Source: Bacteroidetes Order II. bacterium
GTDB lineage: Bacteria; Bacteroidota; Rhodothermia; Rhodothermales; UBA2364
Length of the DNA: 40,986 nucleotides
Direction: 5' to 3'
NCBI GenBank assembly: GCA_016788705.1
Contig: JAEUSQ010000036.1
Coordinates: 1 to 40,986 of the forward strand
The notes beneath the pieces are model-generated. The model searched no databases. It worked only from the letters and a program-made list of their open reading frames with translations, and was not told where the DNA came from. The position numbers and the translations under genes are program-made. Of this stretch, positions 446-36,249 are shown in pieces; position 1 is the first letter of the stretch; each line of letters begins with the position of its first letter.

Positions 446-790
446 CTACGCCTCAATGCCGGCCTCTTTCATCAATTCCAAGCCATAATCACGGATAAAG
501 GTAATCACCTCTATCGCTCGTTCACCTTTCGGTGTGAGGCGATATTCCACACGGGGTGGAACCTCTGGATAGACTTTGCGCCCCAGAAATCCATCACGTT
601 CCAATTCACGAAGCTGGGTGGTTAGCATTTTTTGACTGATATGGGGAATGTCCTTATGCAATTCGCTATATCGCATCACCCGATTTTTAAGCCGCCAAAG
701 AATCGGCATCTTCCATGTTCCGCCAATCTGGTCTAAAGCAAACTCTACGGGATTATAGAAGGTTTTGCCTTGGTAATGAAAATCGCCCAT
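446..790 (-). CDS. HxlR-family winged-helix transcriptional regulator
   Basis: This 114-residue protein is a complete HxlR-type MarR-like regulator. It carries the ALDQIGGTWKMPILW helix, the ISQKMLTTQLRELERDG recognition segment and the PPRVEYRLTPKG wing. Family members usually bind DNA as dimers, and many sense aldehydes or oxidants through an N-terminal Cys in a CPxxxAL motif. Here the equivalent position reads NPVEFAL, so that Cys is absent and the protein contains no other obvious sensor. It is divergent from the DJ-1/PfpI gene at 963 across a 172-bp gap, the usual arrangement for an HxlR repressor and its target. The start is the first ATG of the conserved frame. Family assignment is firm; the ligand is unknown. 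Confidence 0.93.
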   Translation of the reverse strand: MGDFHYQGKTFYNPVEFALDQIGGTWKMPILWRLKNRVMRYSELHKDIPHISQKMLTTQLRELERDGFLGRKVYPEVPPRVEYRLTPKGERAIEVITFIRDYGLELMKEAGIEA

Positions 791-962
791 ACCTTAAGCG
801 TTTGTTTTTATTGATTCCTACTAAAAAGTGCGTTTCATACAATAGTGTACATTCTTTTTTTTACATGGCGTTTGTGTGCAATTTAGGACCATGCTATGAA
901 GCAAGCTTTGCCTTTACAAACCAAAAGGTGAAGTGTTCCCGTCATTTTTTTGAGAAACCAAG
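791..962. promoter_or_regulatory. divergent HxlR / DJ-1 intergenic control region
   Basis: The gap holds a small inverted repeat, TACA-ATAG-TGTA, at 838-849, and a TTGTTTTTATTGAT tract close to the HxlR start. A nearly identical tract (TTGTTTTTATTAGAT) precedes the second HxlR gene at 4385. The repeat is a candidate regulator site and is inferred only from position and symmetry. No clear sigma-factor boxes were recognised. Confidence 0.3.
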
Positions 963-1727
963 ATGCAAACAATCCAAGAAGTCCAAAACTACGTTCATTT
1001 TCACGGCGCGTCCTCTAAAGGCAAAATCTTAATGGTGGCCAGTTCACCCAGCATTTCTAAACAAACGGGTTGGCCCATCGGGTTTTGGGTAGCTGAACTC
1101 ACGCACCCCTTGCGCGTTTTCCAAGAAGCAGGATATGAAGTCACGCTTGCCTCTACCGAGGGCGGCAAATTAGAAATGGATAGCTACTCCAATCCTACCG
1201 ATGCCAGTGGCTACTCGGCACATGATGTCATTTCGCTGGGCTATATGCAACAAGCATGGTTCAAGGAGATGCTGGAAAACACGCCAAAACTGACGGATGT
1301 AAACGCATCAGATTATGATGCCATTTTTTTGGTGGGCGGTCAAGGTCCCATGTACACTTTCAGGGGCCATGCAGCCTTAGAAAAGCTTTTTGTGGACTTT
1401 TATGAAAGTGGAAAACCAAGCGCTGCTGTCTGCCACTCAACAACCTTGCTTTTAGAAGCGAAAAAGTCAGACGGCGAACTTTTGGTCCATGGCAAAACAT
1501 GGACAGGCTTTGCCGATGCAGAAGAAGAGTTTGCCGATCAAGCGGTGGGCATGAAAATCCAACCTTATCGCATAGAAACGGAAGCCCGCAAAATCGAAGG
1601 AACGACGTTCAAAGTGGCAGCCCCCTTTAGTTCATATGCCATTCAGGATGGCAACCTGATTACAGGTCAGCAGCAAAACAGTGGGGCTGCAGCGGCGGAA
1701 CTGGTGGTAAAAGCACTCAATCGCTAA
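963..1727 (+). CDS. DJ-1/PfpI family protein (type 1 glutamine amidotransferase-like, Hsp31/glyoxalase-III-like)
   Basis: The 254-residue protein has the DJ-1/PfpI fold signatures: KILMVASSPS at the first strand, a GFWVAELTHPLRVFQEAGYEV segment, DYDAIFLVGGQGPMYTF before the nucleophile elbow, and AAVCHSTTLLLEAK with the nucleophile Cys at about residue 157. The following His and the insert before the active site resemble the larger Hsp31-type members that act as chaperones or glyoxalases on reactive carbonyls; the exact substrate cannot be read from the sequence. An internal ATG at 1032 would remove 23 residues, and the upstream start is chosen because it gives the usual N-terminal extension. 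It is divergent from an HxlR regulator and is followed almost immediately by an outer-membrane protein gene. Confidence 0.9.
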   Translation: MQTIQEVQNYVHFHGASSKGKILMVASSPSISKQTGWPIGFWVAELTHPLRVFQEAGYEVTLASTEGGKLEMDSYSNPTDASGYSAHDVISLGYMQQAWFKEMLENTPKLTDVNASDYDAIFLVGGQGPMYTFRGHAALEKLFVDFYESGKPSAAVCHSTTLLLEAKKSDGELLVHGKTWTGFADAEEEFADQAVGMKIQPYRIETEARKIEGTTFKVAAPFSSYAIQDGNLITGQQQNSGAAAAELVVKALNR

Positions 1728-1732
1728 GTGTG

Positions 1733-2362
1733 ATGTTGATGCGCGTATTTGGGGTAATGGCAATGTTCCTTTTCGGGAGCATTGCCCATGCCCAATCTGT
1801 TGAAACCTATGTAGGGCATAAACGGGTAGGGGTGGACTTGATGTGGTTCAAAAACTTTAAGGACACAGCAGGACAGCGAACGCCTTTTTTGTTTTTCAGC
1901 CGCAACCGAGCCAGTATGGATTATGGCAATGCGCCGACGGCTTTTGGCTCGACCAATGCGGTGTCGTACAATTTCAAAAATGGTTTAGGCCTGGTGGTTG
2001 TTGGTTCCTTCTTGAACGCAGGCTTTACGCCCAAGGCTGGGGTTCAATGGGTGAAAATGAAGGATAATTTTTTGTTTTTTGGCTGGCTGGTGGCCGATTT
2101 GAAGGAAAAAGGTGGTATAGATGGCTTTGGGCTATTTCGTTATCAGCCGAAAATCAACGAGAAATGGAAAGGTTTCGGACAGGCAGAGTTGTTCCCTATT
2201 TATAATCCGACAACAAAAACATGGAACCTCACCCAACGCCTACGCCTGGGAGCAAGACATCAGGCTTGGGCAGGTGGCTTGATGATGGACTTTAATCAAA
2301 CGGGGCAAGACCATTTTACGAAAACCCATAATTTCGGCGCATTTTTGAGGTATGAGTTTTAA
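1733..2362 (+). CDS. predicted small outer-membrane beta-barrel protein, function unknown
   Basis: The gene encodes about 209 residues, starting with a hydrophobic signal peptide (MFLFGSIAHAQ, cleavage after the second Ala likely). Alternating hydrophobic/aromatic strands with many Gly and aromatic girdle residues follow, and the protein ends in FLRYEF, with the terminal Phe typical of barrel proteins. I do not recognise a named family. It begins 5 bp after the DJ-1/PfpI stop, so the two are probably co-transcribed. A GTG at 1730 and ATGs at 1733 and 1739 compete as starts; 1733 is chosen as the first ATG. The next gene follows after 26 bp. Outer-membrane location is inferred from composition. 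Confidence 0.65.
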   Translation: MLMRVFGVMAMFLFGSIAHAQSVETYVGHKRVGVDLMWFKNFKDTAGQRTPFLFFSRNRASMDYGNAPTAFGSTNAVSYNFKNGLGLVVVGSFLNAGFTPKAGVQWVKMKDNFLFFGWLVADLKEKGGIDGFGLFRYQPKINEKWKGFGQAELFPIYNPTTKTWNLTQRLRLGARHQAWAGGLMMDFNQTGQDHFTKTHNFGAFLRYEF

Positions 2363-2388
2363 TTTGCTGTCTTATAAACACGAAGGTC

Positions 2389-3336
2389 ATGATTCTCAAA
2401 CGTAATTTTAGCCCCCTTAAAGTCTGGGGCTATATCCAAAATCCGACTTTATTTGCCCTTTTCTGGTCAGGCGCAGTTTGGACGATTTTCCGTTTGACAG
2501 GCGCAAAAGAGATGGGGCTTAGCTTTACCATCATGGGCGTTTTGGGGTCTGCATTGGCCATTTTTGTTGCTTTTCGGAACCAGAGTGCGTATGCCCGCTG
2601 GTGGGAAGCCCGAACCTTGTGGAGCAGTATTTTGGGGGCAAGCCGTGTCTTAGGGCGGCTCATTATTACCTTTACAGATAGCCATGCCCACCAAACCCAA
2701 TATGACCGTGCGCGGAGCGAAACGTTTAAACGCCGTTTGGTTTATGCCTGTATTGCTTGGGCACATGCCTTGCGGATGCAACTTCGCCAGCAAAATGATT
2801 GGGAATCCCTGAAGCCGTTGCTTGAATCCGCCGATTTTGAAGCCTTTAAGACGGCCCATAACAAGCCGTTTTATTTACAGGTGTGGATGGGACAACGGAT
2901 TTATGAAGCGATGGCAAATGGCACTTTGGGAGGTTTTGATAGTTTTCAGATGGAAGGGCAGCTTTTGAGCTTGGCGAATGCCCAAGCAGGATGTGAGCGT
3001 ATCAAAAGCACGCCTTTGCCGCGCCAATACGACTTTTTTACGCGGCTTTTTGTGTTGCTCTTTGCCTTGTTACTTCCGTTTGGGCTTTTAGGTTTTTTTA
3101 CTTCCGAAGCCTTACAACCGGTTTCTTGGCTTATTGTGCCACTTTCTACTGTATTGGCTACTGTTTTCATCATTATGGAGCGAACGGGTGTTGCCAATGA
3201 AGACCCATTTGAAAACAAAATTACCGATGTGCCGCTAACGTACATCTGCAATACCATCGAACGCGATTTGCGCGAAAGTTTAGGAGAGGTAAACTTACCC
3301 GCAAAAGTAGAACCTGAAAACGGATATTTATTCTAA
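2389..3336 (+). CDS. bestrophin-family (UPF0187/YneE-like) anion channel
   Basis: This 315-residue membrane protein carries bestrophin hallmarks: two N-terminal membrane segments, the AFRNQSAYARWWEAR motif after the first pair, PLPRQYDFFTRLFVLLFAL at the start of the second membrane pair, and EDPFENKITDVPLTYIC followed by an IERDL segment near the C terminus, corresponding to the EnPFG...D.p.. signature. Bacterial bestrophins form pentameric channels in the inner membrane; KpBest conducts cations and eukaryotic relatives conduct chloride. Ion selectivity cannot be read here. The stop lies 4 bp before a TMEM175-family channel gene, so the two channel-type proteins are almost certainly expressed together. 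Confidence 0.92.
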   Translation: MILKRNFSPLKVWGYIQNPTLFALFWSGAVWTIFRLTGAKEMGLSFTIMGVLGSALAIFVAFRNQSAYARWWEARTLWSSILGASRVLGRLIITFTDSHAHQTQYDRARSETFKRRLVYACIAWAHALRMQLRQQNDWESLKPLLESADFEAFKTAHNKPFYLQVWMGQRIYEAMANGTLGGFDSFQMEGQLLSLANAQAGCERIKSTPLPRQYDFFTRLFVLLFALLLPFGLLGFFTSEALQPVSWLIVPLSTVLATVFIIMERTGVANEDPFENKITDVPLTYICNTIERDLRESLGEVNLPAKVEPENGYLF

Positions 3337-3340
3337 ACGT

Positions 3341-3928
3341 ATGATGAGCAAAAACCGCATCGAAGCCTTCTCGGATGGTGTCATAGCCATTATCATTACG
3401 GTCATGGTTTTTGACCTGAAAATCCCTGATTTGGCTGCCCATTTTACCGATGCCGATGTGTGGAATGCCTTTCGAGCGCTTATGCCCAAAATTGGGGCTT
3501 ATGCCCTGAGCTATGTCGTTTTGGCCATTATGTGGCTCAATCATCACGCCCTCTTCGACCAATTGCCCCATACCACTTCTAAACTGGTTTGGTATAATTC
3601 GTTTTTGCTCTTTGCCATGTCGCTCATTCCGGCACCAACCGCTTTTTTGGCCGTCCATCCTTTTTTGCCTCAAGCAGTTATGTTCTATGGGTTTATAATG
3701 TTTATGAATGGGCTTGGTTTTTATCTTTTGCGTTGGTATGTGGAAGCCAAAGCCCAATTACTGCCCTATAATCCTTTTATTCAAAGAAGCAACCGTATCA
3801 CAAGCTTGCTCTATTTGGCTTCTGTGCCATTGGCTTGGGTCTCGGTGTATCTTTCGTTCATCATTTTTATTGGCATTCCAATCTGGTATTTTTTACCAGA
3901 TAAATTTCACGCCTCTAAATCATCTTAA
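3341..3928 (+). CDS. TMEM175-family (DUF1211) potassium channel-like membrane protein
   Basis: This 195-residue protein begins with the family signature RIEAFSDGVIAIIITVMV (RxxxFSDG in the first membrane helix), followed by a WLNHH segment and several further hydrophobic helices (about six in all). Bacterial TMEM175 proteins assemble as tetramers of single-repeat subunits and pass potassium with modest selectivity. It starts 4 bp after the bestrophin stop and is probably translated from the same message; ATGs at 3341 and 3344 are both possible. The C terminus is short (LPDKFHASKSS), so no cytosolic regulatory domain is fused. The sequence turns strongly AT-rich immediately downstream. Confidence 0.9.
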   Translation: MMSKNRIEAFSDGVIAIIITVMVFDLKIPDLAAHFTDADVWNAFRALMPKIGAYALSYVVLAIMWLNHHALFDQLPHTTSKLVWYNSFLLFAMSLIPAPTAFLAVHPFLPQAVMFYGFIMFMNGLGFYLLRWYVEAKAQLLPYNPFIQRSNRITSLLYLASVPLAWVSVYLSFIIFIGIPIWYFLPDKFHASKSS

Positions 3929-4040
3929 ACATAAGTGTTACGATCCATTATGGATACTCAAGATATAGGGCATCTTGGTAAATAAGTTTATTTGTATAAA
4001 TGATTGTTTTTAAGATTAAAACTTGGAAATAAACTAAATT

Positions 4041-4385
4041 CTAACCTAATTTATTTTCATCCTTAATTATTTGCCCCCAAATACATAAATCCTGTAAAAT
4101 TGGAGATAAGCTTTTGCCAAATTCTGTAAGGCTATACTCAACCTTAGGTGGAACTTGAGTATATACTTTCCTGTAAATTAACCCGTCATTTTCTAATTCC
4201 CTAAGCTGCTGTGTAAGCATTTTTTGTGTTATACCGCAAATTATCTTTTTTAATTCTCCAAAACGTTTTTTGCCTATAGAAAGATGTCCTAAAATAACAA
4301 CCTTCCACTTCCCCCCAATCACATTCATTGCCGTGGTAAGTGGGCAGTCGAAGTATTTTTGTGCATTTTCAATTTTATTTTTCAT
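4041..4385 (-). CDS. HxlR-family winged-helix transcriptional regulator (second copy, AT-rich)
   Basis: This is a 114-residue HxlR protein with AMNVIGGKWKVVILGHL, ITQKMLTQQLRELENDGLI and PPKVEYSLTEFG. Unlike the regulator at 446, it retains the N-terminal Cys (FDCPLTTAM) where redox or electrophile-sensing members carry it. It is divergent from the GDSL-like lipoprotein at 4505, with a perfect palindrome in the gap at 4422-4436. Base composition is far more AT-rich than genes such as uvrA or the heptose cluster, suggesting recent acquisition with its neighbours. The 112 bp between the TMEM175 stop and this gene hold nothing recognised. Confidence 0.93.
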   Translation of the reverse strand: MKNKIENAQKYFDCPLTTAMNVIGGKWKVVILGHLSIGKKRFGELKKIICGITQKMLTQQLRELENDGLIYRKVYTQVPPKVEYSLTEFGKSLSPILQDLCIWGQIIKDENKLG

Positions 4386-4421
4386 ATAAGTGGTTGTTTT
4401 TATTAGATAGTCACTTTTTTG

Positions 4422-4436
4422 TAAGTATAATACTTA
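4422..4436. promoter_or_regulatory. perfect palindrome, candidate HxlR operator
   Basis: TAAGTAT-A-ATACTTA is a perfect inverted repeat (7-bp arms, one central base) in the 119-bp divergent gap between the HxlR gene and the GDSL-like gene. Flanking TTTTTTG and TATCTACTTG elements repeat the ACTT half. HxlR regulators such as YodB bind TACT/AGTA-type dyads, so autoregulation and control of the divergent gene are likely. This assignment is inferred from position and symmetry. Confidence 0.55.
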
Positions 4437-4504
4437 TAGGTATCTACTTGCAAATATAACACTGTTAAACGTAATTTGGAACATCAATTTTTAAAATCAA
4501 ACTA

Positions 4505-5479
4505 ATGATGAACAAATTCAATATTCAATTTATAGCTATCGTTGTTTTTTCTGCGATGCTTTTCAGTTGTAAAACATTTAAACAATCAAACAAAATGGAA
4601 CAAAAATTTTCAGGAATTGTCGTTTTTGGAGATGGCTTAAACGATATGGGTAAATGGGGAAAATTAACTAACAATCAATATCCACCAGCAGAAGTTGGCT
4701 TTTATGAAAGTCGTTGGACAAACGGAAAAGTATGGGTTGAATATTTTTCAGAAAGTCTAAACTTACCCATTTCATTAGATAACAATTTTGCAATGGGCGG
4801 TGCAACCACAGGTTTATACAACATCAATGAACCACTAAAACCTGCACTGAAATTAGATGAAAAAACTCCTCTCTTGGGAATGTTGGCACAAGTGCAAACT
4901 TACCTTACTTCGAATCCTAAGATTGACGACAAAACCTTGTTTGTACTTTGGGCAGGCGGACACGATATTGGAAACTATCTGGAATATGGACAACCCGATT
5001 TAACACAATATCCCCCATCCAGCAATTACAAACAAGCCATTGAACTTTTGGTAAAAGCAGGAGCAAAAAATATTTTTGTAGGCACTATGCCCGATATGGG
5101 ATATAGTTCAGGCTATTTTGGAACTGATAAGCAAGCCAAGGCATCTGAACTCTGTCAACAATTAAACAAAGGACTTCAAGAAATTGAAGATACTTACAAA
5201 AACACACCAGTAAAATTTTTCAAATTTGATGGTGCAGCCGTTTTTGCGAAAGTTGGAATGAACCCTACTGAATATGGCATCAAATACACAGACGCTTATT
5301 TACCGATGAACATCATCAACTTTATGAATCCTTTGGAAAGAACGAATGTAGCTATTCCGAACAAAGTAAAAGGTTTAAATCCAGACGAATTTATGAATTG
5401 GTGGGCAGTTTCAGCAAGTGCCAAAGTTCATAAAATCATCGCAGGCGAAGCAGTAAAATTTGTATCAGATAAAAAATAA
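4505..5479 (+). CDS. GDSL/SGNH-family lipoprotein with degenerate catalytic residues (predicted pseudoenzyme)
   Basis: The protein is 324 residues with a lipobox ending at Cys22 (AMLFSC), so it is probably anchored in the outer membrane. Similarity to GDSL esterases of the thermolabile-hemolysin type is clear: block I FGDGLNDMGK (about 41-50), ESRWTNGKVWVEY, block II NFAMGGATTG, block III LWAGGHDIGN and a C-terminal block V region. The active-site positions are altered. The block I Ser is Gly44 (GGC, one base from AGC Ser), the block III Asn is His153, and in NWWAVSASAKVHKI the Asp and His of the usual D-x-x-H are Trp300 and Ser303. Hydrolysis is therefore unlikely; a binding role is possible. 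AT-rich, divergent from HxlR, and its last 69 bp are repeated at 6052. Confidence 0.8.
   Translation: MMNKFNIQFIAIVVFSAMLFSCKTFKQSNKMEQKFSGIVVFGDGLNDMGKWGKLTNNQYPPAEVGFYESRWTNGKVWVEYFSESLNLPISLDNNFAMGGATTGLYNINEPLKPALKLDEKTPLLGMLAQVQTYLTSNPKIDDKTLFVLWAGGHDIGNYLEYGQPDLTQYPPSSNYKQAIELLVKAGAKNIFVGTMPDMGYSSGYFGTDKQAKASELCQQLNKGLQEIEDTYKNTPVKFFKFDGAAVFAKVGMNPTEYGIKYTDAYLPMNIINFMNPLERTNVAIPNKVKGLNPDEFMNWWAVSASAKVHKIIAGEAVKFVSDKK
5393..5461 (+). repeat. 69-bp direct repeat, copy 1 (end of GDSL-like gene)
   Basis: Bases 5393-5461 match 6052-6120 with one substitution (A at 5452, C at 6111; both Ala codons). This copy encodes MNWWAVSASAKVHKIIAGEA and the following VKF of the intact gene. The spacing is 659 bp. 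Confidence 0.95.
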
Positions 5480-5489
5480 TCATAATGTT

Positions 5490-6027
5490 ATGAAGCAATT
5501 ATATTTCAAAAGCAAAAAGCATATTATAGCAGTTGCGTTAAGCTGGATTTCAGTATTAATCTTACTTCAGTCATATTTTATCCCTAAATTCGGTAAACTT
5601 ACAGGTCAAAAGTTACTCGATTTTTCTGATTTCAATTCCGAGACAATCAATCAAATTGTGTCTAAATTTGGAGATGCAGGTGTTAATTTATATTTTAAAA
5701 TTCAATTCTTTGATTTCCTATCTCCCTTATTATTAGGGTTTTTATTGGTTAGCATCTGTTTAACTATCTTAATAAAGAGAGGTATTAAATTTTCATTTAT
5801 CGGGTATTTTCCATTTTTATTAACCTTATTTGATTTTATTGAGAATGGAATTATCCTTAATATACTCATAAAGTATCCAGAAAAAAATAAGTAGTGAAGT
5901 AGCAAATACACTTCTCAGCGTTTCTTCAATAAAAACATTGATCTATTTAACTTCCTTTTTGTTGACACTTGGTTTGATAATTTACTATTTTATAACAAGA
6001 AAAATAACAGCTAAATCCAATCATTAA
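5490..6027 (+). pseudogene. four-helix membrane protein gene split by a frameshift in a poly-A tract
   Basis: The frame from the ATG at 5490 encodes about 134 residues with two to three hydrophobic helices (AVALSWISVLILLQSYFIP; LLLGFLLVSICLTILI; FPFLLTLFDFIENGIIL) and stops at 5894 after KYPEKNK. Just before that stop is a run of seven A (5881-5887). Removing one A restores a continuous frame, KYPEKISSEVANTLLS, followed by another membrane helix (LIYLTSFLLTLGLIIYYF) and a stop at 6025-6027. The whole gene would then encode about 178 residues with four helices. I do not recognise the family. This is a real lesion, a phase-variable tract or a sequencing error. AT-rich; it starts 10 bp after the GDSL-like gene. 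Confidence 0.6.
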
Positions 6028-6051
6028 ATAATATTATAAAGGCTAAACCTA

Positions 6052-6135
6052 ATGAATTGGTGGGCAGTTTCAGCAAGTGCCAAAGTTCATAAAATCATCG
6101 CAGGCGAAGCCGTAAAATTTATTAACTCAAAATAA
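6052..6135 (+). pseudogene. orphan 3' end of a second GDSL-like gene (direct repeat copy 2)
   Basis: Bases 6052-6120 repeat 5393-5461 with one synonymous difference, then diverge into FINSK and a stop at 6133-6135, where the intact gene reads FVSDKK. The separate C-terminal residues show this is the tail of a distinct but near-identical gene, or of the ancestral gene at this locus, rather than an exact copy. No upstream part of that gene is present. The stop lies 8 bp before the oxidoreductase at 6144, so a GDSL-like gene probably once stood directly in front of it. Confidence 0.8.
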
Positions 6136-6143
6136 TTAAAAAA

Positions 6144-6761
6144 ATGAATATCGCCATTATTGGAACTGGAAATGTGGGCGGTGCGCTCGCCACACATTGG
6201 GCAAATAAAGGGCATACGATTTTCTTGGGGGTACGCGATCCCCAAAACTTTAAAGGGGCAAACCTGCTCCAAAATCCGCATACAACGGTTCATTCGATCC
6301 CCGAAGCGGTAAAACGAGCCGAGGTGATTTTACTCTCCACCCCTGCCATGATGGCCGTAGAGGTGGCACAATCCCTGGGTGATACCACTGGAAAAATTGT
6401 GATAGATGCCATGAATATCGTCATGGGGCGGGGGCCAGCAGGGTTTTCTAATACCACCGATGCCATTCTGGCGCACACCCCAGCCTGTGATGTGGTGAAA
6501 TGCTTCAATACAACAGGCTATAACAATATGCAGAACCCAGTTTATGGGGATAACGCGATTGATGCCTTTGTGGCAGGCGATAGCGCAAAAGGCAAGGCAC
6601 TTGCTACTGAATTGGCATTGGATGCGGGCTTTGCTGCTTGTTACGATGTGGGCGGAAACGATAAATTTCAGCTCATGGAGCAATTCGCGTGGTTCTGGAT
6701 CAATCTTGCCATGTTCCAAGGACAAGGTCGTGAAATAGGTTTTAAACTCCTAAAGCGGTAA
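6144..6761 (+). CDS. NADPH-dependent F420 reductase-like / NAD(P)-binding oxidoreductase
   Basis: The 205-residue protein opens with a Rossmann fingerprint (MNIAIIGTGNVGGALATHW), then FLGVRDP at the cofactor-specificity strand, EVILLSTPAM, IVIDAMN and KCFNTTGYNN. These match the FNO-like (F420-dependent NADP reductase, COG2085) family, which in bacteria without F420 acts as a general NADP-binding reductase. The C-terminal LMEQFAWFWINLAMFQGQG segment fits the family dimer helix. Base composition returns to the host-like value here, so it lies outside the AT-rich island. It starts 8 bp after the orphan GDSL tail; no partner follows downstream. Substrate unknown. Confidence 0.88.
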   Translation: MNIAIIGTGNVGGALATHWANKGHTIFLGVRDPQNFKGANLLQNPHTTVHSIPEAVKRAEVILLSTPAMMAVEVAQSLGDTTGKIVIDAMNIVMGRGPAGFSNTTDAILAHTPACDVVKCFNTTGYNNMQNPVYGDNAIDAFVAGDSAKGKALATELALDAGFAACYDVGGNDKFQLMEQFAWFWINLAMFQGQGREIGFKLLKR

Positions 6762-8588: not shown

Positions 8589-11495
8589 ATGTCCGAAACC
8601 GTTCAATTTCCGCCGGAAAAAGGGCCCTCGGCCGATGTACGTAGGCCCATTGTAATAAAGGGTGCTCGGCAACACAACTTGAAAAATGTGGATTTGGTAT
8701 TGCCCCGGAATAAACTGATTGTGTTTACCGGGCCATCTGGCTCTGGCAAGTCTTCACTCGCTTTTGATACCATTTATGCAGAAGGACAACGGCGCTATAC
8801 CGAAAGCCTGAGCGCTTATGCCCGCCAGTTTTTGGAGCGTATGGATAAGCCAGACGTGGATAATATTACGGGGCTTTCACCAGCCATCGCCATTGAGCAA
8901 CGCACCGTAGCCCGAAATCCACGTTCCACGGTTGCTACAACTACGGAAATCTACGACCATTTGCGTTTGCTTTTTGCCCGCATAGGGAAGACGGTTTCTC
9001 CGATAAGCGGCGAAGTGGTAACAAAAGACTCGCCTCGCTCGGTAGCGAACGAGTTGGAAGCCATCCTGGAAGAGGGCGCTCGGTTTTATATATGCTTTCC
9101 GTTTCCACAGCGTAAAGGCGGTTCCTTGCTCTTGGAACTTCAGGCAATGCAGGCACGTGGTTTTTTTCGGTTTTTGGTGCTCCCAACCTCTAAACAGGCG
9201 GAAAAGGGGATCACGGAAACCCTGATAGACCTTAATGAGACACCCCCTGAACAGGTGAAAGCCACCAAAGAACGGCTTTTGGTGTTGGTGGACCGTCTGG
9301 CTATGCAGAAGAGAGATGAAGCCCTCCTCTCGCGTATTGCAGACTCGGTTGAGGCGGCTTTCCGGGAGGGAGGAAGCCAATGTGTGGTTAAACGGTTCAG
9401 AGATACAACTCAATGGGTCTTTTCGGAGTTGTTCGAGCGCGACGGTATTGTATTCCAGGAGCCTACCCCTCAGTTGTTTTCCTTTAATTCGCCAACAGGT
9501 GCTTGTCCAACTTGCCAAGGATTTGGTCGCGTGCAAGGCATAGACGAAAATCTGGTTGTGCCCAATATTAATCTGACGATACGCGAAGGAGCCTTGGCGC
9601 CTTTTAATACCGATACTTGGAGGACTTACTATCAAGACTTGCTCTCAGAAGCCTCGAAATACCGATTTCCAATAGATATACCCTATGTAGCGCTAAACAC
9701 CGAACAAAAAGAATGGCTGTGGAACGGTTATGGGGCCTATATCGGGGTCCGACCTTTTTTTGCATTTTTGGAAAAGAACAATTATAAAATGCACTACCGG
9801 ATTTACCACGCACGGTTCCGGGGATATACTACGTGTCCCGATTGCAAAGGCCACCGAGTACGGGCAGAGGCACGGTATATACGGGTGGATGATGGTACAC
9901 CCACTAAAGGCAAAAGTATTGGTGAAGTTTCCGCTTTGACCATCCGAGAAGCACATGATTGGTTTTATGGATTACATCTCACGGCCTTTGAACATGGGGT
10001 AGCTGGAAGGGTGATGGAGGAAATCTTGAAACGCCTCCGGTATTTAAATGAGGTGGGGCTGGAATACCTGACCCTAAATCGCTTGTCGCAAACCCTCTCT
10101 GGCGGGGAAAGCCAACGAATTAACCTCGCTACATCGCTTGGCTCATCGCTGGTGGGTTCTCTTTATGTCTTGGATGAACCCAGTATTGGGCTACATCCGC
10201 GTGATACCGATCGGTTAATCCGGATTTTGGAACACCTACGCGATATCGGAAATACAGTCTTGGTGGTAGAGCACGATAAAGACATGATGGCACGGGCAGA
10301 CCATATTGTAGATATAGGGCCTGGGGCGGGCAAGTTTGGAGGAGAAATTGTGGCGGCAGGTACCTATGAGGAAGTGATCCAAAACGCGGACTCGTTGACA
10401 GGGGCTTATCTTTCCGGTACTAAAAGCATTCCCACGCCTATAACAAGGCGATCGGTGGACCCGGCGCGGATGCTTGTTGTAGAAGGAGCACGGGCCAATA
10501 ACCTAAAAAACCTTACCGTTCGTTTCCCATTAGGCATTTTTACGGTAGTTACTGGGGTGAGTGGATCTGGAAAATCTACCTTAGTCTATCAAACCTTGTA
10601 CGGTGGGCTAAAACGTCTGAAAGACAGTTTTTCGGAAGAAGTAGGGGCGCACGAAGCCATACATGGCTCGGAAGCCATAGGGCAGGTAGAAATGGTGGAT
10701 CAATCTCCGATTGGCCGGACGCCCCGTTCCAATCCTGTAACCTATATGGGGGCATACGATGAAGTCCGCAACCTTTTCGCAGATACTTACCAAGCCAAAA
10801 TACGCGACTATAAGGCGGGGTATTTCTCCTTTAATGTACCTGGTGGACGATGTGAAACGTGCGAGGGTGATGGGGTGGTGAAAGTGGAAATGCAGTTTCT
10901 GGCCGATTTATACCTGACGTGCGAAGCCTGTAAAGGCAAACGGTTTAAACAAGATGTGTTGGATGTACGGTATAAAGATAAAAATATTGACGATGTACTT
11001 CGGATGACGGTGGACGAAGCGGTTCTTTTTTTTGCAGATAAGCCTCGCTTAGTAAAAAAACTCAAGGTCATGCAAGATATTGGATTAGGGTATCTGTCTT
11101 TGGGGCAACCGGCCAATACCATATCGGGCGGGGAGGCCCAGCGTCTGAAATTAGCCTATTATCTGGCAAGATCTGCTAAAGAACACACTTTGTATATCTT
11201 CGATGAACCCACAACTGGTTTACACTTCGACGATATTCAAAAACTATTAGATTCGTTTCAAATGTTGATCAAAAACGGTCATTCCGTAGTTGTTATTGAA
11301 CATAATTTGGATGTTATCCGGTGTGCAGATTGGGTCATAGATATTGGTCCGGAAGGCGGAGATAAAGGTGGTACCCTTGTAGCCGAGGGAACACCAGAAG
11401 TGCTCTCCGAGATTTCGGAAAGCCATACAGGTCGCTTTTTGAAACAGGCAATGACCACCCATAAATGCCAAAAGCCTATGAATGGGGAACTGTAA
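8589..11495 (+). CDS. uvrA: UvrABC excinuclease subunit A
   Basis: UvrA is the damage-recognition ATPase of nucleotide excision repair; a UvrA dimer loads UvrB at lesions. The 968-residue protein has two ABC ATPase modules: Walker A FTGPSGSGKSSLAFDTI (about 46-62) and GVSGSGKSTLV (about 655-665), signature motifs LSGGESQRINLA and ISGGEAQRLKLA, and Walker B LYVLDEPSIGLHPRD and LYIFDEPTTGLHFDD. The zinc-binding cysteines CETC (from about 755) and CEAC (from about 778) are present in the second half. In the first half the CxxC pair normally preceding the LFSFN segment is missing, while CPTC (about 306) and CPDC (about 416) remain, the form usual in Bacteroidota-type UvrA. Length is normal. Stands alone, with no uvrB nearby. 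Confidence 0.98.
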   Translation: MSETVQFPPEKGPSADVRRPIVIKGARQHNLKNVDLVLPRNKLIVFTGPSGSGKSSLAFDTIYAEGQRRYTESLSAYARQFLERMDKPDVDNITGLSPAIAIEQRTVARNPRSTVATTTEIYDHLRLLFARIGKTVSPISGEVVTKDSPRSVANELEAILEEGARFYICFPFPQRKGGSLLLELQAMQARGFFRFLVLPTSKQAEKGITETLIDLNETPPEQVKATKERLLVLVDRLAMQKRDEALLSRIADSVEAAFREGGSQCVVKRFRDTTQWVFSELFERDGIVFQEPTPQLFSFNSPTGACPTCQGFGRVQGIDENLVVPNINLTIREGALAPFNTDTWRTYYQDLLSEASKYRFPIDIPYVALNTEQKEWLWNGYGAYIGVRPFFAFLEKNNYKMHYRIYHARFRGYTTCPDCKGHRVRAEARYIRVDDGTPTKGKSIGEVSALTIREAHDWFYGLHLTAFEHGVAGRVMEEILKRLRYLNEVGLEYLTLNRLSQTLSGGESQRINLATSLGSSLVGSLYVLDEPSIGLHPRDTDRLIRILEHLRDIGNTVLVVEHDKDMMARADHIVDIGPGAGKFGGEIVAAGTYEEVIQNADSLTGAYLSGTKSIPTPITRRSVDPARMLVVEGARANNLKNLTVRFPLGIFTVVTGVSGSGKSTLVYQTLYGGLKRLKDSFSEEVGAHEAIHGSEAIGQVEMVDQSPIGRTPRSNPVTYMGAYDEVRNLFADTYQAKIRDYKAGYFSFNVPGGRCETCEGDGVVKVEMQFLADLYLTCEACKGKRFKQDVLDVRYKDKNIDDVLRMTVDEAVLFFADKPRLVKKLKVMQDIGLGYLSLGQPANTISGGEAQRLKLAYYLARSAKEHTLYIFDEPTTGLHFDDIQKLLDSFQMLIKNGHSVVVIEHNLDVIRCADWVIDIGPEGGDKGGTLVAEGTPEVLSEISESHTGRFLKQAMTTHKCQKPMNGEL

Positions 11496-11825: not shown

Positions 11826-13004
11826 ATGGAGCATACACATAGACCTAAACGTATTGCCCTCTTTACTGGAAACTACAACCATGTGGCAGATGGTGTTTCG
11901 CTCACATTGAATCGCTTGGTGCGATATTTGGAAGCTCGTGGTTCTAAAGTGATGGTGGTTGCGCCAACCATCGAAAAACCTCCCATTGAAGCAGCGGGGT
12001 TATTTCGCCCCGTCCCCTCTATTCCCATGCCCATTCCCAATCGGCAGGAGTACAGGGTGGCTTTTCCAATGTCTATACGCGCCAGACAAGAAGTCATACG
12101 CTTTCGCCCACAATTAATCCATATTGCCACGCCCGATCTGCCTGGGCGTAATGCGCTTAAACTTGGACGGAAATTGGGGATCCCCGTTGTTGCTTCCTAT
12201 CATACCCACTTTAGTTCGTATTTATCCTATTACCACATGGATATGTTGGTGGGACGTTTGTGGCAGTATCTCAAAAGGTTTTATGATCAATGCGACCATG
12301 TATATGTGCCCTCGAGTTCTATGGCCGAGGTTTTACGTGAACACGACATCCAGAAAAATATTTTACTCTGGGAACGGGGGGTCGAAACAGACCAGTTCTC
12401 GCCAGAGAAAAAGTCGGAAGCATGGCGTATAGCGCATGGGATTGCCCCAAACGAGCCTGTTGTGCTGTTCGTAAGTCGGCTGGTATGGGAAAAGGGCTTG
12501 GAGGTGTTTATGCGGGTAGTCCAGCAACTGGAGGCAAAAGGTATTTCGCATAAGAGCGTGATTGTAGGGAATGGTCCTGCGGAGGAAGAGCTGCGCGAGC
12601 AGTTACCCAATAGTATTTTTAAAGGGCATTTAGCGGGCGAAGAGCTGGCCATGGCGTATGCGTCGTCGGATGTTTTCCTTTTTCCCAGTACTACCGAGAC
12701 GTTTGGAAATGTTACCTTAGAAGCCATGTCTTCTGGCTTGCCTACAGTTTGTGCAGATGCGACTGGAAGCAAAGAATTGGTAGCCAATCATAAAACAGGC
12801 TTCCTATTGGCGTCTGGCAATGTGGCCCAGTTTTATGAACGTGTAGAAACCCTGATTATCCAAGATGCTCTTAGGAAAGAAATGGGGGCCGCTGCGCGTG
12901 AACGGGCCTTATTGTATAGCTGGCCCGAAATCTTGGGGAAGATAGACGGTTATTACGATCAATTACTTTTCCCCGACGCCGAAAAAAGTTTGTTCAACCT
13001 TTGA
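11826..13004 (+). CDS. GT4-family glycosyltransferase (MgtA/PimB-like)
   Basis: This 392-residue GT-B fold retaining glycosyltransferase has an N-terminal acceptor domain starting RIALFTGNYNHVADGVS, with VSLTLNRLVRYLEARG and SYHTHFSSYLSYY, and a C-terminal nucleotide-sugar domain with VVLFVSRLVWEKGLEVF, VGNGPAEEELRE and the EX7E motif in STTETFGNVTLEAMSSGLP (about 288-306). The closest recognised relatives are GDP-mannose-dependent alpha-mannosyltransferases and SQD2-like enzymes; donor and acceptor cannot be set from sequence. It is first in a run of ten plus-strand genes and shares the TTGA overlap with a second GT4 gene. With hddC, hddA and gmhA downstream, a GDP-sugar such as GDP-heptose is a plausible donor, but that is inference from context. 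Confidence 0.9.
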   Translation: MEHTHRPKRIALFTGNYNHVADGVSLTLNRLVRYLEARGSKVMVVAPTIEKPPIEAAGLFRPVPSIPMPIPNRQEYRVAFPMSIRARQEVIRFRPQLIHIATPDLPGRNALKLGRKLGIPVVASYHTHFSSYLSYYHMDMLVGRLWQYLKRFYDQCDHVYVPSSSMAEVLREHDIQKNILLWERGVETDQFSPEKKSEAWRIAHGIAPNEPVVLFVSRLVWEKGLEVFMRVVQQLEAKGISHKSVIVGNGPAEEELREQLPNSIFKGHLAGEELAMAYASSDVFLFPSTTETFGNVTLEAMSSGLPTVCADATGSKELVANHKTGFLLASGNVAQFYERVETLIIQDALRKEMGAAARERALLYSWPEILGKIDGYYDQLLFPDAEKSLFNL

Positions 13005-14152
13005 CCCCTTCACCACACGTTATCGTGCGTATTTTATTCGTATCGCATCTTTTTCCGCCACAAGACCGACCTGAAGCCAATGTAGGTGGGATGCAGCGGG
13101 TGGCAACCGATTTATATGCGGTACTGCAAAAAAGGACGGATCTTTCGTTGCATTCTAAAGTCCTTAGAACGTCTTGGAAGTGGATCGAATGGAACACGGC
13201 CCAGTTCTTGGTGGGGTTGTGGCGCAACCTCCCCGAATACATAGAACGTCACCAAATTGAGGTGGTTTTGTTCTCGTCTATGGTTCCTGCCCTCGTTCTT
13301 ACGCGAATTCATCATAAAATGGCGTCTCTTGGGGTGAAAACCTTTGTCATCGTACATGGACACGATGTGACCATGCGGGCTGTTGTATATCAAAGGTTGG
13401 TACATCAGGTCTTTAAGGCGGCAGATGGTATTCTTCCTGTAAGTACGGCCACTGCGGAGGCCTGTTTGGCGCGGGGGCTGTCGCCCGGAAAGTGCCATGT
13501 CGTGCATAATGGCATAGACGTATCTCGGTTTACCCAAACGGCTACCCGATTAGAGGCCCGTCATGCACAACTTGAGTTATTGGGCATTTCTGAAGTGCCG
13601 GATACCGACCTCATTCTATGTAGTGTAGGACATTTGGTGGAGCGTAAAGGGTTTCACTGGTTTATTGAAGAAGTAATGCCTCTGCTTCCGCCAAGTGTGC
13701 ATTATTGGTTGGCGGGCGATGGGCCTTATCAAGGAAAAATACGCGAGGCCATCCACCGACATCATCTCGAAGGACGGGTTAGGCTTTTGGGTAGGACGTC
13801 AGAGTTTGTCTTGGAAAACCTGTATTCGGGGGCGGATTTGTTTATCATGCCCAATATCCCTGTTGTAGGAGACCTAGAGGGGTTTGGGATGGTATTATTA
13901 GAGGCGGGTACTTGTGGTCTTCCTGCTATCGTCTCGGACTTGGAGGGCTTGCATGACGTCATTCATGAAGGAGAAAATGGACATTTTGTACCATCTGGTG
14001 ATGCCGCCGCCTTTCGGGATAAAATTTTGTTTTATGAAGATCGAGACCAGCTAAAGTCTGCATCCGAGCGGGCAATGGCGTATATTCCGAACGTTTTTTC
14101 CTGGGAAAGCGCGGTGGAGCAATACCTTGCCATTTTCCAGCAACATCTTTAA
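13001..14152 (+). CDS. GT4-family glycosyltransferase
   Basis: The second GT-B glycosyltransferase of the cluster is about 383 residues. It shows the N-terminal glycine-rich acceptor loop (ANVGGMQRVATDLY), VIVHGHDVTMR, VSTATAEACLARGL and HNGIDVSRF at the domain junction, then CSVGHLVERKGFHWFIE, LAGDGPYQGKIRE and the EX7E segment EGFGMVLLEAGTCGLP. The start is either TTG at 13001, overlapping the previous stop as TTGA, or GTG at 13025 directly before RILFVSHLFPPQ; both keep the fold intact, and the overlapping start suggests translational coupling. Donor and acceptor are unknown. The next gene starts 8 bp after the stop. Confidence 0.88.
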   Translation: MTPSPHVIVRILFVSHLFPPQDRPEANVGGMQRVATDLYAVLQKRTDLSLHSKVLRTSWKWIEWNTAQFLVGLWRNLPEYIERHQIEVVLFSSMVPALVLTRIHHKMASLGVKTFVIVHGHDVTMRAVVYQRLVHQVFKAADGILPVSTATAEACLARGLSPGKCHVVHNGIDVSRFTQTATRLEARHAQLELLGISEVPDTDLILCSVGHLVERKGFHWFIEEVMPLLPPSVHYWLAGDGPYQGKIREAIHRHHLEGRVRLLGRTSEFVLENLYSGADLFIMPNIPVVGDLEGFGMVLLEAGTCGLPAIVSDLEGLHDVIHEGENGHFVPSGDAAAFRDKILFYEDRDQLKSASERAMAYIPNVFSWESAVEQYLAIFQQHL

Positions 14153-14159
14153 TGCTCTT

Positions 14160-14600
14160 ATGTCTTTTATCAAACAAATGAACTACACATACGATACCTT
14201 GGAAATTGGGCAACACTTTGCAATGAAGCGCACCCTCAGCATGGAGGAAGTCATGGTTTTTGCACAGGTTACGGGCGATGACAATCCAATTCACGTAGAT
14301 TATGAATATGCCCAAAATACCCCTTTTGGCAAGCCGATTGTGCATGGCGTTTTTCTGATGGGGCTGGTTTCTAAGGTGCTCGGACGAGATTTTCCGGGGC
14401 ATGGCAGTGTGGCAGTATCCATAGAAACCAAGTTCTTGCGTCCGGTAGCCGTCGGCGAAGAAGTGACCATCGAGATAGAGGTGCTGGAAAAACTCCCGCG
14501 TAATCAGGTAAAGGTTCGAACAGCAGGGTATATCGTCGTGCGTGATCGAAAAAAAATTGCTTTTGATGGGTCGGCAGTTTTGATTCCACCCACCGAATAA
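14160..14600 (+). CDS. MaoC-like / (R)-specific enoyl-CoA hydratase
   Basis: This single hot-dog domain of about 146 residues carries the hydratase-2 motif VTGDDNPIHVDYEYA, with catalytic Asp at about 40 and His at about 45, spaced as in PhaJ, and the following GKPIVHGVFLMGL helix. Family members hydrate trans-2-enoyl-CoA to (R)-3-hydroxyacyl-CoA. The start is taken at 14160, 8 bp after the glycosyltransferase stop; a second ATG at 14178 would also keep the domain. It ends 2 bp before a MenE-like ligase, so the two acyl-CoA enzymes are probably co-translated. Their role inside a glycan cluster is unclear; acyl modification of the glycan, or simple operon sharing, are both possible. Confidence 0.88.
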   Translation: MSFIKQMNYTYDTLEIGQHFAMKRTLSMEEVMVFAQVTGDDNPIHVDYEYAQNTPFGKPIVHGVFLMGLVSKVLGRDFPGHGSVAVSIETKFLRPVAVGEEVTIEIEVLEKLPRNQVKVRTAGYIVVRDRKKIAFDGSAVLIPPTE

Positions 14601-34126: not shown

Positions 34127-34531
34127 ATGAAAATCTTACAGTCTATTCCATTATTTGCATGGCTTTTGTTGGTGCTCAATATGGTGGTATTTGCCAGCGA
34201 TCGGGCATTGGAGACCGTTATTTTGGATGTCCCGCTTATTTCCGGAGCACGCTTTATCTTGGATTTGGGACATCTTCTCTTGATGGTGGGCGTTGTGGTC
34301 TTATATTTCGAGATTATAAAGGCCACCCGCACCACAACCGCTTCGGTGGTAGATCATGGTCTGTCCACCATTATTTTTGTCTTATTCCTGATAGAGTTCA
34401 TTACCGTCAGAGCGTGTGGAAATGCCACTTTCCTGGCCATTGCGGTCATGTCTTTGGTAGATGTGGTGGCCGGGTTTACCGTCACCATTTCGTCTGCTAA
34501 GCGCGATCTTTCATTGGGAACACAGCCCTAA
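34127..34531 (+). CDS. small integral membrane protein, four helices, function unknown
   Basis: 134 residues with about four membrane helices: IPLFAWLLLVLNMVVFA, FILDLGHLLLMVGVVVLYF, STIIFVLFLIEFITV, and FLAIAVMSLVDVVAGFTVTI. No family recognised. The frame is open upstream, but ATG 34127 is the first start outside the amidohydrolase gene, lying 80 bp after it. It stops 10 bp before prmA and is probably in the same transcript. Confidence 0.75.
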   Translation: MKILQSIPLFAWLLLVLNMVVFASDRALETVILDVPLISGARFILDLGHLLLMVGVVVLYFEIIKATRTTTASVVDHGLSTIIFVLFLIEFITVRACGNATFLAIAVMSLVDVVAGFTVTISSAKRDLSLGTQP

Positions 34532-34541
34532 TTCTTTTTAC

Positions 34542-35420
34542 ATGAACTACGTTTCCCTTACGGTTTCCGTCCCGTCTGAAGAACAGGACTTGCTCATCGC
34601 AGAGTTGATTGCCCTTGGCTTTGAGTCTTTTTTGCAGGAAAATGACCACATACAGGCATTTGTCGCTAAAAATCAATATCCTGCCGAGGCGGCAAATGTA
34701 GTATTAGACTGGCTGGCACACCATGGATACCCGCAGCAGGTTTCTCTTGATGAAATAGAGCCGCGCAATTGGAATGCACAATGGGAAGCCTCGATTCGTC
34801 CGATTGTGGCCGGATCGTTTGTGATTGCCCCTACTTGGAGTGCGGTTGGGGGAGAATATGTGGGGAAAACCGTTATCCGCATAGACCCCAAGATGAGTTT
34901 TGGTACAGGCCATCACCAAAGTACACGGTTGGTCTTAGGCTTTTTGCCTAAATTTGTCCGGCCCAACGACCGCGTATTGGATGCCGGAACCGGAACGGGG
35001 GTTTTGGGAATTGCAGCCCTCAAACTGGGTGCACTTCATGCACTGGTCTTCGACGACGATCCTTGGGTAGAGGAAAACGTTCAGGAAAACTTCCTCTTAA
35101 ACCATGTAGAATATGCGTATGAACTACGGATTTGTGGTATGGAGGGTATCTACGAAGTTGGCTTTGATGTGATCATTGCCAATATCCAGCGGAATGTGTT
35201 GTTAGAGATGATGCCAGACTTTCAGGAGAAAACCAAGCCCAATGGCTTTCTGATCTTGGCTGGGTTGTTGACGGAGACAGACCGCGTACCGATCATTGCT
35301 TCGGCGGCGGCGCATGGGTTTACCTTGGAAGACGAAGCAACCGAGGATGAATGGTGGAGCGGGGTATTCTTGCGGCACAATACCTTTGCTGAAAATGTCT
35401 CCACAAATGGAAAGAATTAG
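34542..35420 (+). CDS. prmA: ribosomal protein L11 methyltransferase
   Basis: This 292-residue PrmA has an N-terminal substrate-recognition domain (MNYVSLTVSVPSEE...) and a C-terminal class I methyltransferase: KTVIRIDPKMSFGTGHHQST (the family substrate and SAM loop), RVLDAGTGTGVLGIAALKLG (motif I), FDVIIANIQRNVLLEMM (NI motif) and WWSGVF at the end. PrmA methylates lysines of ribosomal protein L11 in the cytoplasm. The ATG at 34542 gives the usual N terminus. Its stop overlaps the start of a second, diverged PrmA-like gene by 14 bp. Confidence 0.95.
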   Translation: MNYVSLTVSVPSEEQDLLIAELIALGFESFLQENDHIQAFVAKNQYPAEAANVVLDWLAHHGYPQQVSLDEIEPRNWNAQWEASIRPIVAGSFVIAPTWSAVGGEYVGKTVIRIDPKMSFGTGHHQSTRLVLGFLPKFVRPNDRVLDAGTGTGVLGIAALKLGALHALVFDDDPWVEENVQENFLLNHVEYAYELRICGMEGIYEVGFDVIIANIQRNVLLEMMPDFQEKTKPNGFLILAGLLTETDRVPIIASAAAHGFTLEDEATEDEWWSGVFLRHNTFAENVSTNGKN

Positions 35421-36249
35421 TCTTTTTGTCTTTCCTGCCGAAGGAGAAAATCCCGAAGATTGGGTTCAGACATTGGCCCAAATCGGTTGGCAACACCCTT
35501 ATGGGACCAGTGCCTATGCCGCTGCTTCAGCATTTCGCACCGACTGGAAAGGGGTCTTTGCCAATCATACGTTTCAAACATTAACACATTTTGTAGAAGC
35601 CCGTCGCTTATTAGATTGGCATATACAAGGAGAAGAAAGCCCTGTTCAGTGGGAAGTATTCTCTCGCCCTGTTTTAGCAGGAGATTTCTACGTCTTGCCG
35701 GACTGGTTGCATCCCAAGCCTGCTACGTTGGCACCACATTACCTCTTGCTTAAGCAATCCCTCGCGTTTGGAACGGCCCAGCACCCCGCTACACGGATGC
35801 TGCTCCGGATGCTGTCCAAGTACCTCAAGCCCAGTGATACCGTGGCCGATATCGGCACTGGTACGGGTATTCTGACCATCGCTGCTTTGCAATGTGGGGT
35901 TACATCCGTCTGGTGTAGCGATCTACATGAATGGATGGTAGAAGAACTCCAGCATAACTTGCTGCTCAACCAATGCTCGCCAGAAAACATTCATTTCACG
36001 ACCAAGCCACCTAAGGACTTTCCGCAAAAACATTTTTCGATGGTTTTAAGCAATATCTCGGCAACTTTTCACTTGGAAAATGTGCATGAGCTGATGGATC
36101 TGTTGTCTTTGGATGGGCTTTTGATGGTGTCTGGTATAAAAGAACCAGAAGCCGAAGACGTATTGGAGGCGTTTATGCGCGCTGGTCTAAAGCACGTCCA
36201 AGCCGAAGTCGAAGAAGGTTGGTGGTCAGGTGTTTTTAAACCGTTATGA
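35407..36249 (+). CDS. PrmA-like methyltransferase, tandem diverged paralogue
   Basis: 280 residues with the same two-domain layout as prmA just upstream: an N-terminal domain starting MERISLFVFPAEGE, aligned with MNYVSLTVSVPSEE of prmA, and a methyltransferase domain with QSLAFGTAQHPATRMLLRML (prmA: MSFGTGHHQST), DTVADIGTGTGILTIAALQCG, MVLSNISATFHLENV and EGWWSGVF. The SAM-binding residues are kept but the substrate loop and the IANI motif (here LSNI) are changed, so it may target a different protein. It overlaps prmA by 14 bp. An ATG at 35395 is also possible; 35407 is preferred because it matches the PrmA start. Confidence 0.85.
   Translation: MERISLFVFPAEGENPEDWVQTLAQIGWQHPYGTSAYAAASAFRTDWKGVFANHTFQTLTHFVEARRLLDWHIQGEESPVQWEVFSRPVLAGDFYVLPDWLHPKPATLAPHYLLLKQSLAFGTAQHPATRMLLRMLSKYLKPSDTVADIGTGTGILTIAALQCGVTSVWCSDLHEWMVEELQHNLLLNQCSPENIHFTTKPPKDFPQKHFSMVLSNISATFHLENVHELMDLLSLDGLLMVSGIKEPEAEDVLEAFMRAGLKHVQAEVEEGWWSGVFKPL

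Follow-up and report, generated by a model that had tools for sequence, protein, structure and literature searches.

A conserved GDSL-fold protein with replaced catalytic residues, a probable maintained pseudoenzyme associated with an HxlR-linked gene cluster

Can a protein that has all the sequence blocks of a GDSL/SGNH esterase, yet carries other residues at its catalytic positions, still be of use to the cell, and in what role? The question is raised by a gene at positions 4505-5479 of a 40,986-nucleotide contig (JAEUSQ010000036.1) of Bacteroidetes Order II. bacterium (Rhodothermales, UBA2364), the whole of which is referred to below as the window. Profile-based annotation would label the product a GDSL hydrolase. 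An initial annotation of the locus, made from the DNA letters, described instead a lipoprotein that had lost its catalytic residues together, was probably kept for a non-enzymatic role such as lipid or glycan binding, and was accompanied by an HxlR regulator and a candidate operator.

Fold and catalytic positions of the pseudo-SGNH protein

The gene and the codons at the catalytic positions are as follows:

4505-5479, plus strand: pseudo-SGNH (GDSL-fold) gene, probable lipoprotein; intact ORF of 324 aa, with a Pfam match, PDB relatives and seven homologues
4634-4636, plus strand: Gly44 codon (GGC) at the nucleophile position (block I Ser), from codon comparison
4961-4963, plus strand: His153 codon at the position of the block III Asn, from codons and alignment
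5402-5413, plus strand: codons of Trp300 (5402-5404) to Ser303 (5411-5413), where block V would have its Asp and His, from codons and alignment

The 324-residue protein scores 44.6 bits with the Pfam family Lipase_GDSL (PF00657; cut-off, 23.6), which places it within the fold, and its relatives by sequence in the PDB are Legionella PlaA, GDSL enzymes of Vibrio and Photobacterium, and ChoE. It is clearly an SGNH/GDSL-fold protein of the PlaA/ChoE type. An AlphaFold2 model built from 11 aligned rows (pLDDT 77, pTM 0.80), which superseded a first one based on 7 rows (pLDDT 65.8), found its best structural match in ChoE (6uqv; Z 26.3, rmsd 3.0, 264 aligned), while comparison with PlaA (8a25) gave a Z of 24.3 and an rmsd of 2.9 over 259 aligned. 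Part of block V has a pLDDT below 50 in both models (residues 285-303 in the first, 301-303 in the second), so the models do not fix the local geometry there.

The likeness to PlaA-type lysophospholipases (NCBIfam NF045906; PDB 8a24-8a26) extends over the full length in both sequence and fold (NF045906, residues 32-321). However, the score against this equivalog is far under its cut-off (94.8 versus 450 bits), and each of the four catalytic residues of these enzymes (Ser, Asn, Asp, His) is replaced in the window protein. ChoE, a bacterial acetylcholinesterase, retains the catalytic set; its PDB entries with S38A, N147A, D285N and H288N are made mutants, whereas the window protein differs naturally at the corresponding positions.

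In a single alignment, the four catalytic columns read Gly, His, Trp and Ser in all eight family rows and Ser, Asn, Asp and His in all six canonical rows, the latter being those readable at all four sites (fetched sequences L012, L013, L014-L018 and L057-L059, which were partial, long or not read, stand outside this count). None of the eight members thus has the residues expected of an active hydrolase, namely the block I Ser (Gly44), the block III Asn (His153) and the block V Asp and His (Trp300 and Ser303). The block II Gly is retained, with Gly98-Gly99 present in 8/8. The joint loss of the catalytic residues from an intact frame, as initially proposed, is therefore borne out, and it is common to all seven homologues.

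Misalignment of the blocks was ruled out by comparison with a relative from Kovacikia, whose FGDSLSD, WAGANDY and NPDQFLFWDSIHPTTKAH align without gaps to FGDGLND, WAGGHDI and NPDEFMNWWAVSASAKVH of the window protein (blocks I, III and V, respectively). It should be noted that the Kovacikia frame contains a stop just upstream of FGDS and that only the portion after this stop was used.

According to passages of a study of another, unrelated SGNH lipase, substitution of Ala for the Ser, the Asn or the block V His abolishes activity (PMC10779480). Since these catalytic residues are replaced here and the Ala mutants of that lipase are inactive, we strongly infer that classical catalysis has been lost in the pseudo-SGNH family.

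The N-terminus of the window protein contains, by eye, a candidate lipobox, LFSC, at residues 19-22, ending at Cys22. A lipobox-like Cys was seen by eye in five of the seven members with a visible N-terminus, those at loci L005 and L007 being without it. The family is probably exported, and most of its members are probably lipoproteins; the initial designation as a lipoprotein is plausible for the window protein, though perhaps not for every homologue.

Conservation and distribution of the family

The seven homologues share 85 to 48% identity with the window protein. Six were recovered by a scan of genome contigs (from Bacteroidetes UBA2364, a contig binned as Acholeplasmataceae, Saprospiraceae UBA2365, a Kapabacteria bin, an Ignavibacteriaceae bin and Lentimicrobium) and one came from genome G013 (locus L020, 66% identity); all eight known members were found with the window sequence or with an alignment begun from it. 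The Bacteroidetes UBA2364 homologue evidently belongs to a congeneric genome, G127. The contig labelled Acholeplasmataceae (L004, JAAYVM010000154.1) bears the gene cluster that is seen here in Bacteroidota loci, and is probably mis-binned.

The replacement residues are encoded by different synonymous codons across the family (GGA, GGC, GGG and GGT for Gly44; CAC and CAT for His153; TCA, TCG and TCT for Ser303), which indicates that the residues, and not merely the DNA, have been kept. The dN/dS ratio to the nearest relative was 0.163 by a counting method. The remaining pairs that allowed dS to be calculated (three did not) gave ratios between 0.067 and 0.250, these being rough values because dS was mostly saturated. 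The blocks, with ranges of our own choosing (residues 40-50, 94-104, 148-158 and 292-309), proved to be the most conserved part of the protein: 36 of their 51 positions are invariant, compared to 68/235 elsewhere between residues 33 and 318 (odds ratio 5.9, Fisher p 4.6e-8). His153, Ser303, Asp43, Asp154 and His309 are identical in all eight members. No internal stop was present in any of the eight reading frames as read, of which that of L006 is cut at the 5' end by the end of the contig.

In a tree of the eight members and nine canonical sequences, a single branch sets the members apart from the rest, with a support of 80/98, short of the 95 bootstrap mark. The canonical rows lie on long branches whose order the tree does not resolve, nor does it resolve the canonical branch from which the family originated.

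Absence of the catalytic motifs, retention of the fold and purifying selection, the features by which a maintained pseudoenzyme is recognized, are thus found together. Since the replacement residues are common to all eight members, their codons have drifted synonymously and the site blocks are the best kept part, the changes are old and selected. The simplest account would be that the residues were replaced once, in the family's ancestor, and that selection has acted on the new site ever since. The view that the protein has been kept agrees with these results. As for the nucleophile, the initial annotation had correctly placed a GGC codon at the Ser position of FGDS, but the AGC to GGC transition that it mentioned, taken as a recent event in this genome, does not fit an old replacement with four Gly codons in the family. 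Conservation of the replacement residues across distant bacterial groups would mean that the dead site has a selected function.

The family is patchily distributed. Within the class of the window genome, a member is carried by 3 of 244 genomes, all of the window's own genus. In a sample of the phylum, 11/394 genomes matched, comprising three members and eight weaker matches (1.4e-14 to 4.4e-7); the two of these eight that were read (G074 and G229) bear FGDS. In samples taken around the homologues, the seed was the only member found (1/198, 1/294, 1/197 and 1/199, the samples of 294 and 197 overlapping); both overlapping samples contained a further match, G682 (E 4.4e-25), with a canonical FGDS. 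Of four scans of viral contigs, one yielded a 30-residue fragment (L019), two no match, and one four relatives, which show, by eye, FGDS and the block III Asn; no phage match was obtained for a carrier of the pseudo-SGNH gene. Of the 23 plasmid records that matched the protein, none reached 60% identity (30.8% for the best of those listed); four were read and proved to be canonical.

The HxlR-linked cluster and the inserted unit

The pseudo-SGNH gene is preceded by a divergent regulatory gene, which confirms the initially noted presence of an HxlR regulator:

4041-4385, minus strand: HxlR2, divergent HxlR-family regulator with Cys14, Cys50 and Cys101 (HxlR, 124 bits)
4386-4504, no strand assigned: divergent promoter region, with a palindrome at 4422-4436

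The same divergent HxlR2 / pseudo-SGNH pair occurs at L003 and L005. HxlR2 has three Cys residues, with Cys14 near the N-terminus, compared to none in HxlR1, the second HxlR protein of the window. Thiol-based sensing is known for HxlR proteins; in the present case it finds support solely in matches to redox-regulator models that score below their cut-offs (RrpB, 115 versus 175 bits).

The operator candidate, which we equate with the perfect palindrome TAAGTATAATACTTA at 4422-4436, is present in the sequence. However, it was found in the window only among the 11 sequences scanned, being absent from L003 and L005, which have the same divergent pair, and a 7-base arm was reached by 111 of 1000 shuffles. 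Its assignment as an HxlR site is therefore not supported. The promoter stretch (A/G)GTA(C/T)CTACTTGC is common to the window, L003 and L005.

The genes on both sides of the HxlR2 / pseudo-SGNH region form a resident cluster:

446-790, minus strand: HxlR1, HxlR-family gene in the resident cluster, no Cys (HxlR, 98.5 bits)
963-1727, plus strand: DJ-1/PfpI-family protein, family match
1730-2362, plus strand: conserved exported protein that may form a small outer-membrane barrel (by eye: signal peptide, C-terminal Phe; no Pfam match)
2389-3336, plus strand: bestrophin-family protein, family match
3341-3928, plus strand: TMEM175-family protein (potassium channel family), family match
6144-6761, plus strand: F420_oxidored-type NAD(P)-binding reductase, family match

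The order in the window is thus HxlR1 (reverse), DJ-1/PfpI, the exported protein, bestrophin, TMEM175, the interruption that carries the pseudo-SGNH gene, and the reductase. Seven of the eight family loci lie near at least one of the five families DJ-1, outer-membrane protein, bestrophin, TMEM175 and F420_oxidored-type reductase. All five are present in the window and at L020, four at L004 (no bestrophin), three at L008, two at L005 and one each at L006 and L007; L003 has none of the five, HxlR2 alone being present there, and its contig ends 266 bases beyond the stop codon. These counts are lower bounds, several contigs being cut close to the pseudo-SGNH gene. The neighbours are related at the level of the family: the outer-membrane proteins of L004 and L008 are 34% and 37% identical to that of the window, and the TMEM175 proteins of L004 and L005 32% and 36%. 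The reductases of L004, L005 and L006 are of another subtype (the L005 copy is 26% identical to that of the window), so that the single linkage of L006 rests on a neighbour that is the same at the family level only. The gene order varies between the loci, which indicates that the pseudo-SGNH gene joined the cluster repeatedly or moved within it.

When the outer-membrane protein served as the query, 13 of 375 genomes in the phylum gave a match: G000, G013, G372, G190 and nine others, for which the surrounding stretch was analysed. Six of the nine have DJ-1 beside the outer-membrane protein, and none of these six stretches contains the pseudo-SGNH gene; the other three lack genes of the cluster. 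The cluster therefore exists without the pseudo-SGNH gene, which is an accessory component. Additional genes were seen at single loci: a carbonic-anhydrase-like gene at L048 (by eye), an SDR gene at L004 and a DsrE gene at L008.

YodB, HypR and HxlR belong to redox- or aldehyde-responsive HxlR operons. The arrangement shared with these is an HxlR gene divergent from DJ-1 and reductase genes, while bestrophin, TMEM175 and the pseudo-SGNH protein are additions of the window cluster. The DJ-1/PfpI protein and the NAD(P) reductases hint at stress from reactive carbonyls or of the redox kind, and the two channel families at an adjustment of ions; the recurrent cluster of HxlR, DJ-1, outer-membrane protein, bestrophin, TMEM175 and reductase may be a response to electrophiles or pH that includes two families of channels. 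Searches of the open literature returned no paper joining bestrophin and TMEM175 in a bacterial operon, or HxlR and DJ-1/PfpI with electrophiles, and none with three of HxlR, bestrophin, DJ-1 and TMEM175; the combination of HxlR and SGNH gave only a match with an unrelated title.

The pseudo-SGNH gene lies in DNA of distinct composition. The GC content of 3929-6051 is 0.316 versus 0.458 for 446-3928, and at third codon positions the pseudo-SGNH gene has a GC content of 0.29 and HxlR2 one of 0.30, versus 0.48-0.52 for the resident genes. The interruption comprises HxlR2 (reverse), the pseudo-SGNH gene and two further elements:

5490-5894, plus strand: TM144, small membrane-protein-like gene; frame broken near 5885, with a continuation in another frame to about 6028
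6040-6132, plus strand: duplicate of the 3' end of the pseudo-SGNH gene (69 nt at 99%), immediately before the reductase gene

TM144 is also present 3' of the L003 homologue. Its frameshift in the window falls near an A-run at about 5885 and could be a real break, an assembly error or a programmed shift. Four plasmid records matched the DNA of the insert, the match covering 5-6% of its length and lying within the HxlR2 gene; one of them is annotated as HxlR there and three are unannotated.

The two copies of the 3' end in the window (5393-5461 and 6052-6120) flank TM144. At L020 in G013, the 3' end of a gene in the cluster is likewise duplicated (11164-11385 and 12413-12634, 222 nt at 98%), the copies flanking a XisH-XisI pair. 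These two congeneric genomes share a pattern in which a gene is followed by small inserted genes and a near-identical copy of its own 3' end. The tail duplications look like the result of insertion at the 3' end of a gene, with the old tail displaced.

In G127, the resident cluster (L047) is without the pseudo-SGNH gene, and HxlR2, pseudo-SGNH and TM144 are placed elsewhere (L021, L003). The more distant copy of G013 is located between the outer-membrane protein and bestrophin genes. The window copy is nearer to those of L004 (80%) and L005 (73%) than to that of G013, and the tree groups these three with a support of 90/85, short of the 95 mark. Since the window copy is closer to copies of other groups than to that of its congener, the HxlR2 / pseudo-SGNH unit has likely moved by horizontal transfer.

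At L021 of G127 (12322-14394, corresponding to L003 2504-4576), a Kef/CPA2-like antiporter gene (by eye) adjoins HxlR2 and pseudo-SGNH. This neighbour may reflect chance or a link to potassium efflux.

Possible role of the pseudo-SGNH protein

We consider it probable that the pseudo-SGNH protein is a maintained pseudoenzyme, exported and likely anchored in the membrane, whose cleft binds without hydrolysing and which serves the HxlR-regulated stress cluster. In the family ancestor, the Ser, the oxyanion Asn and the block V Asp and His would have become Gly, His, Trp and Ser, and the remodelled cleft would then have been held nearly invariant. In the periplasm, the cleft might hold a ligand of acyl, lipid or glycan nature, or else another protein as its partner, and leave it intact. 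HxlR-type regulators would drive production of the protein together with DJ-1/PfpI, the outer-membrane protein, bestrophin, TMEM175 and the NAD(P) reductase, and we infer that an electrophile or redox signal calls it into action. The linkage yields the hypothesis that a redox/electrophile cluster with two ion-channel families works together with an exported protein that is not an enzyme.

In a bolder reading, to which we attach little probability, the SGNH fold has been re-tooled for another chemistry or for sensing, so that His153, Ser303 and Trp300 constitute a new periplasmic site that deals with adducts of reactive carbonyls or acyl groups. This site would be part of a response to electrophiles under HxlR control, and TMEM175 and bestrophin (a family of anion channels) would adjust the cell by analogy with the Kef channels of E. 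coli.

It is likewise rather improbable that the protein has stayed an enzyme by rearranging its active site, so that His153 acts as the base and Ser303 or another residue as the nucleophile, the chemistry being changed and not lost. The invariance of Asp43, Asp154 and His309 in addition to these two residues in 8/8 members would suit such a site, as catalytic pockets are often the best kept part of enzymes, and SASA-family SGNH enzymes are active with a non-standard oxyanion residue, as stated in passages of a superfamily review (PMC9487903). However, four standard side-chain roles have been lost together, a bulky Trp occupies the Asp position, and no subfamily in the passages of that review, or in the other literature passages, uses such a set; in addition, block V is precisely where the models are weak.

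The protein could also be cargo of a mobile HxlR2 / pseudo-SGNH / TM144 unit, functionally unlinked to the stress cluster, with its neighbours representing chance sites of insertion. The low GC content of the unit, its different place in G127 (L021 versus L047) and the patchiness of the family (3/244 genomes of the class) are consistent with this explanation. We nevertheless find it unlikely, given that seven of the eight loci lie beside the same five gene families, in several slots and even where HxlR2 is not adjacent (L004 and L020). Recent inactivation or a sequence error in a gene on its way to becoming a pseudogene, an idea that the broken frame of TM144 and the tail fragment at 6040-6132 might inspire, is scarcely credible, because the same residues occur in seven other records from separate genomes, with synonymous changes, stop-free frames and low dN/dS.

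For the proposed non-hydrolysing pseudo-SGNH protein, there is a parallel among plant proteins in At1g54030, which we take to be GOLD36/MVP1/ERMO3 and which likewise belongs to the GDSL family. The plant protein was reported to be inactive as a lipase and to have taken on a new function, and in the passages of the source it is apparently counted among sequences without block V (PMC4757993), whereas the pseudo-SGNH family has all the blocks, with their residues changed. SGNH pseudoenzymes have thus been described in plants, while the literature passages name no comparable bacterial case, and no paper on the pseudo-SGNH family or its gene cluster was found among the matches listed in the open literature.

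Elsewhere in the window, positions 34461-36249 contain two consecutive overlapping frames that resemble, by eye, PrmA-type methyltransferases.
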